The position numbers and the translations under genes were made by a program. Positions 55,812 to 60,869 of a stretch of 64,000 nucleotides of DNA are shown here, in pieces. Origin of the DNA: Acidobacteriaceae bacterium KBS 89 (GTDB taxonomy: Bacteria > Acidobacteriota > Terriglobia > Terriglobales > Acidobacteriaceae); assembly GCA_000381605.1 (NCBI GenBank), contig KB906754.1:951147-1015146 (forward strand), in the 5' to 3' direction. How positions within the stretch are numbered: position 1 is the first letter of the stretch; every line of letters begins with the position of its first letter. Below the pieces are notes generated by a model, which did no database searches, was not told the DNA's origin, and was given only the letters and a program-made list of their open reading frames with translations.

Positions 55812-56273
55812 CTATCGATTCAGCGAACTTCCCGGCTCCGCCCCAACCTCCAACCCGAAGCGCGATAGCTCGCGCTTCTGGAGGTTGTAGTCGATAAAGA
55901 AGCCAATCCCGATGGCCAGCGGAATGATGCCGACGGCCGCTCCAGCCAATACATCGCGTTCGCGCAGAATGTAGCTTAGCGTAACAAAGAAGAGCGTTAG
56001 CCCAATTCCAACTGAGACCAGGACAATCGCCGTACGACGCGCGTTGCCCAGGCTGCGCAGCGGGTCTTTGACGGCCGGTTTGTCCTCGCTCCCCGAACCG
56101 AGCAACTTCTCAATCTCGGCCAGCGGCACCCCGCGAGAGATCATCGCGATACGTTCCTCAGACTTGATCCGGCGCTTGTGGCCGTCCAGCCAGATACCCG
56201 AAACGATAGCCACAATGCCGACCATGCAACCGGCAACCGGCACAATAAACGGACTAAATACGAAATTTCCCAT
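55812..56273 (-). CDS. Membrane protein of DUF6249 type, divergent partner of an ECF sigma gene
   Basis: A 153-residue protein with three hydrophobic helices (VPVAGCMVGIVAIVSGIWLD, TAIVLVSVGIGLTLFFVTLS, LAGAAVGIIPLAIGIGFFID). The cytoplasmic linker contains ERIAMISRGVPLAEIEKLLG, a family feature. The ribosome site is GAGGAGGT, 6 nt from the ATG. It is read from a TGAAAC-N17-GTCTAA promoter that mirrors the one of the sigma gene, so both should be switched on together. Confidence 0.8.
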   Translation of the reverse strand: MGNFVFSPFIVPVAGCMVGIVAIVSGIWLDGHKRRIKSEERIAMISRGVPLAEIEKLLGSGSEDKPAVKDPLRSLGNARRTAIVLVSVGIGLTLFFVTLSYILRERDVLAGAAVGIIPLAIGIGFFIDYNLQKRELSRFGLEVGAEPGSSLNR

Positions 56274-56299
56274 TTCACTACCTCCTCTTTCTGCCCGCG

Positions 56300-56328
56300 T
56301 TAGACCGGCCCACCCCCCTAAAGTTTCA
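56300..56328 (-). promoter_or_regulatory. ECF-type promoter, minus direction
   Basis: TGAAAC (56328-56323), 17-nt spacer, GTCTAA (56305-56300) on the minus strand, leading to the DUF6249 gene with a leader of about 20 nt. It is the mirror image of the promoter at 56339-56367. Confidence 0.65.
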
Positions 56329-56338
56329 CTCGCATCAA

Positions 56339-56367
56339 TGAAACTTTCGGCGCACTCTATGGTCTAA
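56339..56367 (+). promoter_or_regulatory. ECF-type promoter, plus direction; leaderless
   Basis: TGAAAC (56339-56344), 17-nt spacer, GTCTAA (56362-56367). Transcription would start near 56374, the TTG initiation codon of the sigma gene. The two -35 blocks are the arms of a 9-bp inverted repeat AAAGTTTCA/TGAAACTTT with a 10-nt gap (56320-56347). Confidence 0.65.
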
Positions 56368-56373
56368 CCCTGC

Positions 56374-56934
56374 TTGTACGCCGATCTCACCTTCGAACAA
56401 GTGGTACGCGACCATCAGGAGATGGTCTTCCGCACCCTTCTGCGTCTGACGGGTAGCCGCGAACATCTTGACGATCTAGCCCAGGACGTCTTTCTCCGCC
56501 TCTACCGCGCCCTGCCCAGCTTTCGCGGCGACGCACTCATTACTACCTATCTCTACCGGATTGCGGTGAACGTCGCGCAGGACGAGTGGAAGCGCCGCCG
56601 CAAGGACCGCGACACGCACACCTCGCTCTCCGACGAAACCTCTGGGTGGGAAGACCGTCTTCCCCACCCCGACCGCAACGCCGAGCAACAGTTAGAGGAG
56701 CGCGAGTTCCAGGAGGCCGTCGAGGGGCAGTTACAGCGCCTCAGCCACATCGAGCGCAGCATCATCGTCCTTTACCACCAGGAAGAACGCACCTACGAGC
56801 AGATCGCCTATGCCCTGGGTATGCCCATAGGCACCGTTCGAACCCACCTGCATCGTGGCCGCAAAAAGCTACGGGAAGCCCTTCAGCCACGTCAAACACA
56901 TGAGAGGAACGCGACATGCACGATGAACCGCTAA
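56374..56934 (+). CDS. ECF RNA polymerase sigma factor
   Basis: A 186-residue sigma factor: region 2 (HQEMVFRTLLRLTGSREHLD, LAQDVFLRLYRALPSFRGDA, TYLYRIAVNVAQDEWKRRRK), linker and region 4 (HIERSIIVLYHQEERTYEQI, MPIGTVRTHLHRGRKKLREA). Only TTG is available as start: a TAA lies three codons upstream and the first Met is inside region 2. The leaderless promoter fits this. It overlaps the next gene by 19 nt and is divergent from a membrane protein that shares the promoter type, indicating autoregulation. Confidence 0.9.
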   Translation: MYADLTFEQVVRDHQEMVFRTLLRLTGSREHLDDLAQDVFLRLYRALPSFRGDALITTYLYRIAVNVAQDEWKRRRKDRDTHTSLSDETSGWEDRLPHPDRNAEQQLEEREFQEAVEGQLQRLSHIERSIIVLYHQEERTYEQIAYALGMPIGTVRTHLHRGRKKLREALQPRQTHERNATCTMNR

Positions 56935-57269
56935 ATCCGAACAACCTGTCGCCAGCCGCAATCGAGCAGGAGCAACTGGATGCGCGCATCGTTCGTGCTC
57001 TCGAAACCACGCCTAAGCCGATGGTTCCGCCGGACTTTGCAGCTCGCCTCGGCAGCCGCCTTCCTGCCCAGCGCCCGGAGTCCCTGACCCCAACCCACTA
57101 TGGTCGCAATGCAACTTTGCTGGGCATCGTGGCAGCTTTTGTGGCGCTGCTGGCCGTTGCCCTGCACACCACGGCCGGGGTCGCGGTCGGCTTTGTGGAG
57201 TCGCTTCTGCTGGCGGAGTTCATCGCATTGACCGTATGGCTCACCGTGCGCCGTCAGAGCCTGCGCTAA
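56916..57269 (+). CDS. Small membrane protein, probable anti-sigma factor
   Basis: A 117-residue protein overlapping the sigma gene by 19 nt. Residues 1-65 are polar (AAIEQEQLDARIVRALETTP), followed by two hydrophobic helices (LLGIVAAFVALLAVALHTTA, ESLLLAEFIALTVWLTVRRQ). There is no zinc HxxxCxxC motif, so if it is an anti-sigma it is not of the ZAS kind. Position and layout (cytoplasmic part first, then membrane helices) are the reasons for the guess. Confidence 0.65.
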   Translation: MHDEPLNPNNLSPAAIEQEQLDARIVRALETTPKPMVPPDFAARLGSRLPAQRPESLTPTHYGRNATLLGIVAAFVALLAVALHTTAGVAVGFVESLLLAEFIALTVWLTVRRQSLR

Positions 57270-57414: not shown

Positions 57415-59175
57415 ATGAAGAGACAAAGAGTTGCAGTTACCGGCGTCGGTCTAGCCGGTCTGGCAGTCGTGGCAATGACCTCCATCGGCCACATCGCAAC
57501 AGCAGCGCCCCCCACCCCCGGACCAACCCCCACTTCGCTCCTGATCGACACGATGGAGTCCGAACTCCACCGCGCGATGGGGTCTCTGGGCAATACGGCC
57601 ACCGACGCCACCCAGCAGCCCAAGCCCTACTTTCTGAGCTACGCCGTCGCTGACTCCAACAGCATCAGCATGTCCGCCCAGTTCGGCGCTATTGTGGGCT
57701 CCAATGAGAGCCGCCGCCGCATCGCTGACGTTCAGGTTCGTCTCGGCACCGCTGCTGAGGACAATACCCACGGCGATCACCGCAACAGCGCCCTCACCAC
57801 CGTTCCCCTTCCGCTCACCGACGACGGTGCGGCGCTTGCTCGAAGCCTGTGGTTCGCCACGAACCGCGGGTATGGGAAGGCACTCGACGGCTACCTCAAA
57901 GTGAAGACTGAACAACAGGTCCGCGCCAAGGAAGAGGACGGCTCCGCTGATTTTTCCAGCGAAAAGGCCGCAACAGAGCTGCTTCCCTCGCCTCCCGCTT
58001 TGGTAGTCGACCGCGCCGCATGGCAGGATCGAATCCGCGAGCTCTCCGCGCTCTTCAAGCAATATCCCGATGTCTTCTTCAACAACGTCGCTCTTGAGGC
58101 ATCCACCGAGACGGACTACTTCGTCTCCTCTGAGGGTGCAAAGGTGGCCACGCCGAACCATGTGGCCCGCCTGATCATTGTCGGTCGCACCCGCGCAGCC
58201 GATGGCATGGATCTGTTTCGCGCTGAGACCTTCGAAGCCGATGAAGTCGCCCACCTTCCCGACCAGAAGATCCTGACGGACAAGACTATCGCCATGGCCA
58301 AGAATTTGGAGGCCCTCCGTATGGCTCCCGTCACCGAGCCGTTCAACGGGCCAGCGATCCTGAGCGGCAGGGCCTCGGCCGTCTTCTTTCACGAGGTCCT
58401 CGGCCACCGCCTCGAAGGCCAGCGACAGCGCGGCGACGACGAAGGCCAGACCTTCACCAAGCTGCTCGGCAAACAAATTCTGCCCCCCTTTCTCAGCGTC
58501 TCGGACGATCCCACGCTCGCCACGATCGACGGGGTCTCGCTCAGCGGCCACTATAGCTTTGACGACGAAGGACAGCCGGCGCGACGCGTCGATCTGATTA
58601 AGAATGGTGTGCTCGACACCTTCCTCATGTCGCGGCTGCCGATTGCCAGCTTCTCCACGTCAAACGGCCATGGCCGCTCCGAGATCGGCCACATGCCAAC
58701 CGGTCGCCAGGGCAACCTCATCGTCACCTCATCCAAGACCGTCAGCGATGCCGAACTCCGCGAAATGCTGAAAGCCGAGGCGAAGAAGCAAGGCAAACCC
58801 TACGGCCTTTACTTCGAAGACATCTCCTCGGGCTTCGCTGTCACAACGCGACGCTCGCCACAGGCCTTCCAGGTCATCCCGCTGGTGGTGTATCGCGTCT
58901 ACGTCGATGGCCGCCCCGATGAACTCGTCCGAGGCGTCAGCATCGTAGGCACGCCGCAGGCCGCGCTCAATCGCATCCTCGCCACCAACGACAAGCAGGA
59001 CGTCTTCAACGGTATCTGCGGCGCCGAATCCGGCAGCATTCCCGTCAGCGCGGTTGCTCCTGCCATGCTCGTCAGCGAGATCGAAACCCAGCGTCAGGCG
59101 CAGGGTACAGCCCGACCGCCAATTCTCCCACCGCCCGGCGCACCGGCTTCGACCGGGGGAAAGGGAGGCCAATAA
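57415..59175 (+). CDS. Exported TldD-like metallopeptidase subunit
   Basis: A 586-residue protein of the TldD/PmbA family with an unusual N-terminal signal (VGLAGLAVVAMTSIGHIATA). The zinc-binding HEVLGH (HExxxH, residues 326-331) and the downstream Cys near 535 (GICGAES) are those of active TldD. TldD/TldE cleave modified peptides (microcin B17, CcdA). The signal suggests work in the periplasm. It overlaps by one base the inactive-looking partner gene. The fold and pair are plain; the substrate is unknown. Confidence 0.88.
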   Translation: MKRQRVAVTGVGLAGLAVVAMTSIGHIATAAPPTPGPTPTSLLIDTMESELHRAMGSLGNTATDATQQPKPYFLSYAVADSNSISMSAQFGAIVGSNESRRRIADVQVRLGTAAEDNTHGDHRNSALTTVPLPLTDDGAALARSLWFATNRGYGKALDGYLKVKTEQQVRAKEEDGSADFSSEKAATELLPSPPALVVDRAAWQDRIRELSALFKQYPDVFFNNVALEASTETDYFVSSEGAKVATPNHVARLIIVGRTRAADGMDLFRAETFEADEVAHLPDQKILTDKTIAMAKNLEALRMAPVTEPFNGPAILSGRASAVFFHEVLGHRLEGQRQRGDDEGQTFTKLLGKQILPPFLSVSDDPTLATIDGVSLSGHYSFDDEGQPARRVDLIKNGVLDTFLMSRLPIASFSTSNGHGRSEIGHMPTGRQGNLIVTSSKTVSDAELREMLKAEAKKQGKPYGLYFEDISSGFAVTTRRSPQAFQVIPLVVYRVYVDGRPDELVRGVSIVGTPQAALNRILATNDKQDVFNGICGAESGSIPVSAVAPAMLVSEIETQRQAQGTARPPILPPPGAPASTGGKGGQ

Positions 59176-60869
59176 TGAATTTAGTCCAAAAAAAGTTACA
59201 AATTGACCGCATTCTTACCGCGGTTTTTTGCTCCATCACTCTTTTTAGCACGGTGACAGTTACAAATCCGGTCTACGCTGAAGCATCGGCCTCGCCGGTA
59301 ACCGACCCACTTCTCCGCGCCATGCAGCAAGAGCTGGATCGCGAGAAGGCGCTTCTGCTCCCCGGCATGCAGCGGCCTTACTTCATTGAGTACCGCCTTG
59401 ATGACATCACCAGCTACGAAGCGGTCGCCAACTACGGCGCGCTCACCCGCGAAGAGGCAAACCATCAGCGCGTCATTCGCGTCACTGTCCGCATTGGCGA
59501 CTACGCTGTGGACAGCAGCAGCAGCCGTGGCGACGGTACCGTCGAGCTCGCCCCAACCGACGACAACCCTCTCGCACTGCAGTACTCCCTCTGGACGGCG
59601 ACCGACACGGCATACAAGAACGCGCTGCGCGCCTACTCCGCGAAACAGGCCGCGCTGAAGCAGTACCAATCCACCCAGGCCCAGCCGGACTTCGCCCAGG
59701 TCAAGCCCGTCGTGCAGGTATTCCCGCTCGTCACTCTCGACCTTGATCGCAAGGAATGGAAACAACGAATCGTCGAAGCCAGCGGCCTATATGCTTCGGA
59801 TCCCGAGGTTCGTTCCTTCGCGCAGTACGTTCAGTACGCCACTGCGAGCGTTCGCGCTATTGCCCTCAATCGCTACCTCGTCAACACTGAGGGGACCATG
59901 GTCAGGCAGGGCTACACCGGCTACAACGGGGGCATCAGCGTCGGTGGACAAGCCGCGGACGGCATGCGTCTCAGCCGCGATAACGGCACGGTCGCGACCA
60001 CCGCCAAAGAACTCGAAAGCGCCTCAGCATTTCGCAAACGCGTCATCGACGACCTTAAGAGCTTCGACGAGCTGCGCAACGCCCCAGTGGTCTCGGCCGA
60101 CGACTACCACGGCCCCGTCCTCTTCAGCGGAGACGCCGTCGCCGACGTCTTCAACCGTCTCTTCGTCCCTAACGTCGAAGCCGATCGCCCCGAGATGGGT
60201 ACCACCGCCCGCACCACCGGCACCTACTCCTCAAGCTATAAATCCCGCGTCCTTCCCGATACGATGAGCGTCACAGACGATCCCCTGCAGACAAAGTTCA
60301 ACGGCAAGGGCCTTCTTGGCGCCTATGTCATCGACGACGAGGGGGTTCCGGCGCAATCGGTCGACATCGTCGTCAATGGCAAGCTCGAAAACTTCCTCAT
60401 CGGCCGCGTGCCTGTCAAAGACTTCGCCAGCTCCAACGGCCACGGGCGCGCCGCCCCTGCACAGGCTCCGCACTCCCGCTCTGGCGTTGTCCTCATCAAG
60501 ACGAGTCAGCCTCAATCGAAGGATGAGCTCAACAAACGCCTGCTCGCGATGGCGAAGGAAGAGGGCAAGGACGTCTACGCCGTCGAAACTCTCGGTGGCG
60601 AACTGCTCCCCCGCCTTCTCTATCGGGTCCACCCGGATGGCACCCGTCAGCTCGTTCGCGGCGCGGTCTTCGACGAACTCGACAACCGCAGCCTCCGCTC
60701 CGGCATTGTCGCCGTCGGCAACGACCCTTACGTCTCGAACTCGCTCGGCGCCTTCCCCCAGACCACCATCGCCCCCAGCATGCTCTTCGACGAGATCGGC
60801 GTAAAGCGCGCTACCGTCGAGCAGCAGAAACTGCCCTACTATCCGCCCCCGGCTCTTCCGGGCAAGTGA
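59175..60869 (+). CDS. Exported TldE-like (PmbA) partner without the zinc motif
   Basis: A 564-residue relative of the preceding product, with a signal (ILTAVFCSITLFSTVTVTN). The common blocks are kept (RPYFIEYRLDDITSYEAVAN, DDEGVPAQSVDIVVNGKLEN, DFASSNGHGRAAPAQAPHSR) but the place of HEVLGH reads ADVFNR, without ligands. As in TldE, it should be the structural partner of a heterodimer. Start ATG overlaps the TAA of the upstream gene (TAATG). Confidence 0.88.
   Translation: MNLVQKKLQIDRILTAVFCSITLFSTVTVTNPVYAEASASPVTDPLLRAMQQELDREKALLLPGMQRPYFIEYRLDDITSYEAVANYGALTREEANHQRVIRVTVRIGDYAVDSSSSRGDGTVELAPTDDNPLALQYSLWTATDTAYKNALRAYSAKQAALKQYQSTQAQPDFAQVKPVVQVFPLVTLDLDRKEWKQRIVEASGLYASDPEVRSFAQYVQYATASVRAIALNRYLVNTEGTMVRQGYTGYNGGISVGGQAADGMRLSRDNGTVATTAKELESASAFRKRVIDDLKSFDELRNAPVVSADDYHGPVLFSGDAVADVFNRLFVPNVEADRPEMGTTARTTGTYSSSYKSRVLPDTMSVTDDPLQTKFNGKGLLGAYVIDDEGVPAQSVDIVVNGKLENFLIGRVPVKDFASSNGHGRAAPAQAPHSRSGVVLIKTSQPQSKDELNKRLLAMAKEEGKDVYAVETLGGELLPRLLYRVHPDGTRQLVRGAVFDELDNRSLRSGIVAVGNDPYVSNSLGAFPQTTIAPSMLFDEIGVKRATVEQQKLPYYPPPALPGK

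Follow-up and report, generated by a model that had tools for sequence, protein, structure and literature searches.

A conserved mirror-image promoter pair beside an acidobacterial ECF sigma gene suggests an autoregulated divergent circuit with a near-leaderless TTG start

Two complete promoter-like sites lie as mirror images of each other between the genes of a DUF6249 membrane protein and a stress-type ECF sigma factor, and their letters and distances recur in a set of 65 non-redundant orthologous loci. The locus quite probably holds an ECF sigma circuit on a symmetric divergent promoter, which would be autoregulated and would have its sigma factor translated leaderless, or nearly so, from TTG, a rare start codon.

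The promoter pair and its genes

The pattern TGAAAC-N17-GTCTAA had been described in the earlier note as occurring in both directions with equal spacing, the -35 blocks forming an inverted repeat, and this description is accurate: the minus promoter spans 56300-56328, the plus promoter spans 56339-56367, and the -35 blocks read AAGTTTCA-N10-TGAAACTT. The features of the locus, numbered within the 64 kb window (the whole stretch of DNA that was analysed), are as follows.

55812 to 56273, minus strand: DUF6249 protein P0003, 153 aa (PF19762 match)
56281 to 56286, minus strand: Shine-Dalgarno AGGAGG, 7 nt before the DUF6249 ATG at 56271-56273 (from the sequence)
56300 to 56305, minus strand: -10 box GTCTAA of the minus promoter, towards DUF6249 (mean 1.80 bits, 57 aligned loci)
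56321 to 56328, minus strand: -35 box TGAAACTT of the minus promoter (mean 1.93 bits)
56329 to 56338, no strand: gap of 10 nt between the -35 boxes (length fixed in 59/64 loci, letters 0.31 bits)
56339 to 56346, plus strand: -35 box TGAAACTT of the plus promoter, towards sigma (mean 1.97 bits)
56362 to 56367, plus strand: -10 box GTCTAA of the plus promoter, whose TAA at 56365-56367 is an in-frame stop for sigma (mean 1.64 bits)
56374 to 56376, plus strand: TTG start codon of sigma, 6 nt past the -10 box, without GGAG, AGGA or GAGG in between (from the sequence)
56374 to 56934, plus strand: ECF sigma factor P0001, 186 aa, with Sigma70_r2 and Sigma70_r4_2 (ORF and domain matches)
56916 to 57269, plus strand: probable anti-sigma factor P0002, 117 aa, whose start overlaps the sigma end (position, helices, weak NCBIfam match)

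The pair consists of two promoters, each complete and clear of the other, with 10 bp in between. Searching the window for the loose form TGAAAC-N14..20-GTCTAA gave exactly two matches, both with N17, against a mean of 0.02 expected, a count of two being reached in 0 of 100 shuffles. The whole 6.0 Mb genome has three matches to TGAAAC-N16-18-GTCTAA, two of which are the divergent pair, and at 0 mismatches TGAAACTT-N15-GTCTAA matched the divergent pair only, with no third copy.

P0001 classifies as an ECF sigma factor (group IV sigma-70) by the presence of both the region 2 and the region 4 domain, scoring 62.2 bits with PF04542 (cut-off 24), 50.8 bits with PF08281 (25.7) and 110.2 bits with TIGR02937 (42.9), and its sequence matches in the PDB are SigW, RpoE and SigH chains. 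Among the best 80 of its 127 relatives, the closest named match was an Edaphobacter metagenome assembly at 88%, which suggests that the genus is Edaphobacter or a near one, and the locus is also present in named strains, e.g. Edaphobacter lichenicola. In Terriglobus roseus DSM 18391 the locus occurs twice (L064 and L065), the copies lying ~460 kb apart and being identical across the compared start region. P0003 is a DUF6249 member, passing the PF19762 gathering score with 39.8 bits (cut-off 33); it is the sole DUF6249 match at E<=0.001 in its genome and is predicted to be all-helical (mean pLDDT 80.0, pTM 0.55). A literature search for DUF6249, with most subscription journals outside its coverage, returned only unrelated work.

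By position and form, P0002 is a probable membrane-anchored anti-sigma factor. AlphaFold placed two shorter helices ahead of two long hydrophobic ones (mean pLDDT 79.7, pTM 0.31), NCBIfam returned a weak anti-sigma match under its cut-off (E 0.011), and Pfam returned no match. A hydrophobic ORF adjoining sigma was picked in 61/65 loci and begins ahead of the sigma stop in 60; the pick from L042 looks spurious, and none came from L024, L083, L090 and L091, of which L090 and L091 are incomplete. Zinc-binding anti-sigma factors (ZAS) typically carry H-x3-C-x2-C in their N-terminal domain; P0002 lacks this motif and does not classify as a ZAS protein. The motif is carried by the anti-sigma candidates of six orthologs (L070-L074 and L089), which branch near the poorly resolved root of a quick tree, and Pfam gave no zinc-finger match for the 4 of these 6 tested.

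Conservation within the genus and across families

The set of 65 loci was obtained by reducing 82 loci to 64, with L063 representing the same gene of L046, and adding L188. It draws on 43 relatives at >=51% identity (L049-L091) from the best 80 of 127, and on a sigma search with 79 matches in 78 genomes, 30 of which have loci (15 new and 15 already in the set). Promoters were scanned with <=2 mismatches in 14 positions and with spacers of 16-18 only.

Comparing the regions upstream of orthologous sigma genes, a check suggested in the earlier note, revealed that both promoters are kept: the plus promoter occurs in 65/65 loci (32 perfect, 25 with one mismatch, 8 with two) and the minus promoter in 64/65 (41 perfect, 22 with one mismatch, 1 with two). 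The spacing after TGAAAC was 17 in all 65 plus promoters and in 62/64 minus promoters, and 18 in two minus promoters. The gap between the -35 boxes was 10 nt in 59/64 loci, 9 in two, 11 in two and 22 in one (L069), the last being near one extra helical turn. Column conservation was taken over the 57/65 loci with standard geometry, where the four boxes hold 1.64-1.97 bits per column compared with 0.31-0.47 for the two spacers and the gap; as the orthologs are related and uncorrected for it, these counts and bits are not independent. The letters between the boxes thus drift across loci while the distances stay. Beyond the boxes, the 14 bases past the minus -10 box hold 0.92 bits, and the 10 bases past the plus -10 box 0.43 bits. 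Within 200 nt, the minus promoter appeared to be absent from L083 and L090, a candidate loss that was rejected when a wider scan showed it in both.

A divergent DUF6249 match was found in 61/64 loci (L188 left out); L063 and L066 (each with only 102 bases upstream) and L087 are the loci without one. L087 misses the minus promoter and keeps the plus promoter, with no DUF6249 match found in 2.5 kb upstream, and this joint absence of minus promoter and DUF6249 is a single event.

The exact promoter was found in 38/62 genomes of the genus. Away from the locus, only four isolated matches (G384, G361, G024 and G031) occurred in these 62 genomes, with ~2 chance matches estimated and one match to a reversed control pattern. 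A wide regulon was rejected because the exact matches off the locus are about what chance would give; in the window's own genome, <=3 mismatches gave 195 matches compared with 412 for the reversed pattern, hence no excess. Allowing one mismatch, the mirror -35 pattern was present in 39/62 genomes of the genus: 37 of the 39 sigma-bearing genomes (the exceptions being G009 and G397) and 2 of the 23 others, among which G432 and G433 were left out of the sigma-gene test. Repeats resembling AAGTTTCA-N10-TGAAACTT were seen in G001 (L185) and G023 (L186), and a sigma ortholog was not found in either genome. Both repeats lie between unrelated genes, look like hairpins by eye and were set aside as promoter pairs.

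A search for DUF6249 across 297 genomes of the phylum gave a match at E<=0.001 in 91 of them and one above the family cut-off in 47. The 61 places examined comprise 21 of 30 loci (19 from other families) and 40 further ones. An ECF gene (tblastn E<=1e-4) was found in the fetched flanks of 35/61 places, divergent from DUF6249 in 15 and on its strand in 20, whereas the flanks of the other 26 gave none. The 15 divergent pairs are spread over ten families other than that of the window, and in 6/15 (L315, L318, L324, L327, L331 and L338) the DUF6249 match is under the Pfam cut-off.

A mirror -35 in the form NNNAAC reached p<0.05 against dinucleotide shuffles in 8/15 divergent pairs (L273, L282, L284, L296, L300, L309, L318 and L331; Fisher 3e-8) and fell short of it in 7/15, compared with 0/20 in the same-strand controls (Fisher 0.998). 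In 9/11 loci with a usable mirror -35, letters of the -10 area were common to both sides at the same offset at p<0.05 (Fisher 8e-12), with one arm shuffled letter by letter only; L273 and L300 had no matching -10 in this test, which omits L272, L304, L315 and L327, where no mirror -35 was clear. Box letters vary between loci and tend to agree inside a locus: L282 and L284 have TGAAAC with GTCCAA on both sides, L296 has TGAAAC with GTCTAA at N19 on both sides, L318 has TGTAAC with GTCTGT on both sides, and L331 combines TGCAAC with two different -10 boxes, GTCCAA and GTCTCA, one per side. These loci are not all independent, since L282 and L284 are close relatives. Together, the mirror -35 boxes and the covariation within loci suggest that the adjacent sigma factor reads both promoters. 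The fixed 10-nt gap was rejected as a general rule, the gaps in other families ranging from 9 to 59 nt. In the 20/61 places with DUF6249 on the ECF strand (L271, L275, L276 and 17 more), 19 of the DUF6249 genes sit 51-264 nt upstream of the ECF match, so the DUF6249/ECF partnership is not bound to the divergent layout.

The start codon of the sigma gene

The earlier note had the sigma gene begin at TTG 56374, with an in-frame stop just upstream that leaves no other start, and this stop is present: TAA at 56365-56367 closes the plus -10 box, so that the sigma gene has no start farther upstream. The next in-frame ATG, GTG or TTG is GTG 56401, 33 nt past the -10 box. In 50/65 loci, the first in-frame start lies 6-9 nt past the -10 box (39 TTG, 10 GTG and 1 ATG), where ~6% would be expected per unrelated sequence by my own arithmetic, with codons <4 nt from the -10 box uncounted; the TTG start thus withstands the refuting condition set in the earlier note, a conserved N terminus that begins elsewhere. 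From the start to a conserved F there are 6 codons in 45 loci and 7-24 in five, and in these five the start therefore stayed near the -10 box and not near the protein domain. An F-E pair is present in 60/64 sigma N termini compared, among which L046 was taken in a wrong frame.

The remaining 15/65 loci are not compatible with a leaderless start: they comprise an 11-locus clade that starts 28-156 nt past the -10 box, mostly with ATG, together with L005, L023, L039 and L066. Placing the compatibility label on the quick tree needed 4 changes, with two tree rows incomplete. In L005 (and also L049) the -10/start segment, GGTCTAACCCTGC, is duplicated in tandem, so that the start lies 23 nt from the properly spaced -10 box.

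No GGAG, AGGA or GAGG occurs between the -10 box and the sigma start in any of the 50 segments. On the DUF6249 side, 61/65 loci were scored, with the start 21-74 nt past the -10 box being the first in-frame ATG; ATG in 61/61 is thus partly by construction, as that codon was taken where present. A Shine-Dalgarno-like match of >=4 bases was found there in 60/61 loci compared with ~1/8 expected (own arithmetic).

The claim that transcription starts on the TTG itself is supported in part: 50/65 loci have the spacing expected of a leaderless start, the leader may be ~2 nt long, and 15/65 loci do not fit. A purine precedes the start at position -2 in 28/50 loci, so a leader of 2 nt is plausible for the TTG starts, and in the loci that start with GTG the G itself may be +1.

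Leaderless genes are present in 3/3 Acidobacteria, at 13.3% on average, according to the available part of PMC3160421. In the window's own genome, a sample of 1.6 Mb with 1355 mechanical ORFs was searched for TANNNT 6-7 nt before candidate starts, with expected counts taken from other distances. Before ATG, 93 cases were found compared with 34.5 expected, and before GTG 39 compared with 26.7; TTG gave no clear leaderless excess in this sample (26 compared with 23.3, and 20 compared with 12.1 with a stricter box). The non-start controls CTG, ATC and GCC gave 42, 40 and 45 compared with 37.2, 33.0 and 39.9 expected. Leaderless starts are thus likely used in this genome, mainly with ATG, which makes the TTG preference of the sigma gene unusual. 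For mycobacteria, the available text of PMC4633059 describes TTG and CTG as ineffective leaderless starts, with ATG or GTG needed.

Alternative readings, the proposed circuit and known systems

The poor performance of TTG as a leaderless start in mycobacteria (PMC4633059, available part) is also what gives some weight to a reading in which the promoters are real and the sigma protein starts at GTG 56401 or at a later in-frame ATG; the clade of 11 loci that begin farther from the -10 box, mostly with ATG, points the same way. This reading is unlikely nevertheless: the stop in the -10 box bars any start farther upstream, no Shine-Dalgarno sequence was seen ahead of GTG 56401, a start there would lose the F-E pair found in nearly all N termini, and the codon at this position is GTG in some relatives and CTG, TTG or ATT in others. 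Quite improbable, too, is that the two sites, though ECF promoters, serve a different ECF sigma factor of the cell, without autoregulation. The promoter specificities of ECF factors can overlap, and the sigma protein finds 22 matches in the window's genome at E<=0.001, P0001 itself counted; yet the exact promoter is almost confined to the locus, and the promoter pair tracks the presence of the sigma gene and differs between families along with it.

It is also very unlikely that a dimeric transcription factor uses AAGTTTCA-N10-TGAAACTT as its operator, with the -10-like boxes arising as by-products. The strict inverted repeat and its nearly constant 10-nt gap are indeed what operators show, but the -10 boxes are almost as conserved as the -35 boxes and at fixed spacing, L087 retains the sigma-side half without the other half, and in other families the gap varies widely while the letters of the -10 area still agree within most loci with a mirror -35. 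This covariation fits two promoters of one sigma factor, and an operator for an unrelated factor explains it less easily.

A pair of promoters read by the adjacent sigma factor is thus the preferred reading, and the bidirectional autoregulation predicted in the earlier note gains support from the conservation of both promoters, their covariation in other families and, as one case, the joint absence in L087. In the proposed circuit, the sigma factor encoded at 56374-56934 would recognise TGAAACTT-N15-GTCTAA in both mirror-image copies and would drive its own operon, consisting of sigma and a membrane-anchored anti-sigma factor, as well as the divergent DUF6249 gene. When the anti-sigma factor lets the sigma factor go, both mirror promoters would rise together. 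The DUF6249 message would carry a Shine-Dalgarno leader and an ATG and hence a good ribosome-binding site, and the sigma message would begin on the TTG or within about 3 nt of it and be translated (near-)leaderless from a weak codon. Owing to this weak start, sigma may be kept low relative to DUF6249. The predicted start points are ~80 bp apart, the centres of the -35 hexamers are separated by 16 bp, or about one and a half turns, and from this spacing two polymerases could be placed on opposite faces of the DNA.

A bolder version, in which symmetric ECF divergons with DUF6249 run through the phylum, their translation is gated by the promoter and UUG serves as a leaderless start in Acidobacteria, is tentative and rather doubtful. 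Under it, only transcripts from the sigma promoter would yield sigma and read-through RNA would not, because the gene has no ribosome-binding site and starts at UUG or GUG. If such promoter-gated reading were true, acidobacterial ribosomes would use leaderless UUG, against the mycobacterial ATG/GTG rule.

Each element of the arrangement has precedents, in autoregulated ECF operons, divergent promoters and leaderless genes. Autoregulated ECF sigma/anti-sigma operons include RpoE-RseA of E. coli, SigW of B. subtilis and others. Like these, the window locus has an operon of ECF sigma factor and membrane protein whose promoter should be read by the sigma factor itself, and the box geometry of TGAAACTT-N15-GTCTAA resembles that of the RpoE promoter. 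Unlike these, it has a second, mirror-image promoter at a fixed distance for a divergent membrane-protein gene, its sigma start lies within 9 nt of the -10 box, and strict copies of its promoter show no excess off the locus.

The ecfG-phyR locus of Rhizobium etli, as the accessible part of PMC3892343 presents it, similarly sets an ECF sigma gene under its own control beside a divergent gene of the same circuit; unlike in the window locus, the divergent gene at the alphaproteobacterial ecfG-phyR is that of the response regulator PhyR, and that part of the source makes no mention of mirror symmetry or of a leaderless start. The bidirectional promoters of E. coli share with the window locus symmetric DNA, divergent transcription and possible competition between polymerases, and each is a single pseudo-symmetric sequence with which polymerase engages in either orientation, as far as the accessible text of PMC12825309 goes. 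By that definition, the window pair is not a bidirectional promoter of this type, being two complete promoters back to back, 10 bp apart. With leaderless genes, the sigma gene shares a -10 box a few bases ahead of the start and the absence of a Shine-Dalgarno sequence (PMC3160421 and PMC4633059, both in part); unlike the mycobacterial ones, which begin with ATG or GTG in the available text of PMC4633059, it starts with TTG in 39 of the 50 compatible loci.

What appears to be new is the combination of a symmetric, covarying promoter pair tied to DUF6249 with a conserved, apparently near-leaderless TTG start. No such arrangement was found in the literature searched on divergent ECF autoregulation or leaderless ECF genes, which was available in part and had most subscription journals outside its coverage. 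DUF6249 gains a regulatory context from the sigma locus. As a natural test case, the locus also bears on whether bacteria can begin a leaderless message at UUG and on the effect of a fixed distance between back-to-back ECF promoters. The family-specific pairs of promoter and sigma factor are material for learning how ECF factors select their boxes.

PmbA/TldD genes were considered as a core of the module and rejected, with a match beside sigma in 7/43 loci, 4 of which 43 had under 2 kb downstream. PmbA/TldD is a protease family that is usually cytoplasmic. In the window, 57415-60869 encodes two tandem PmbA/TldD-like proteins (PF19289) whose N termini look like signal peptides by eye, which suggests exported forms.
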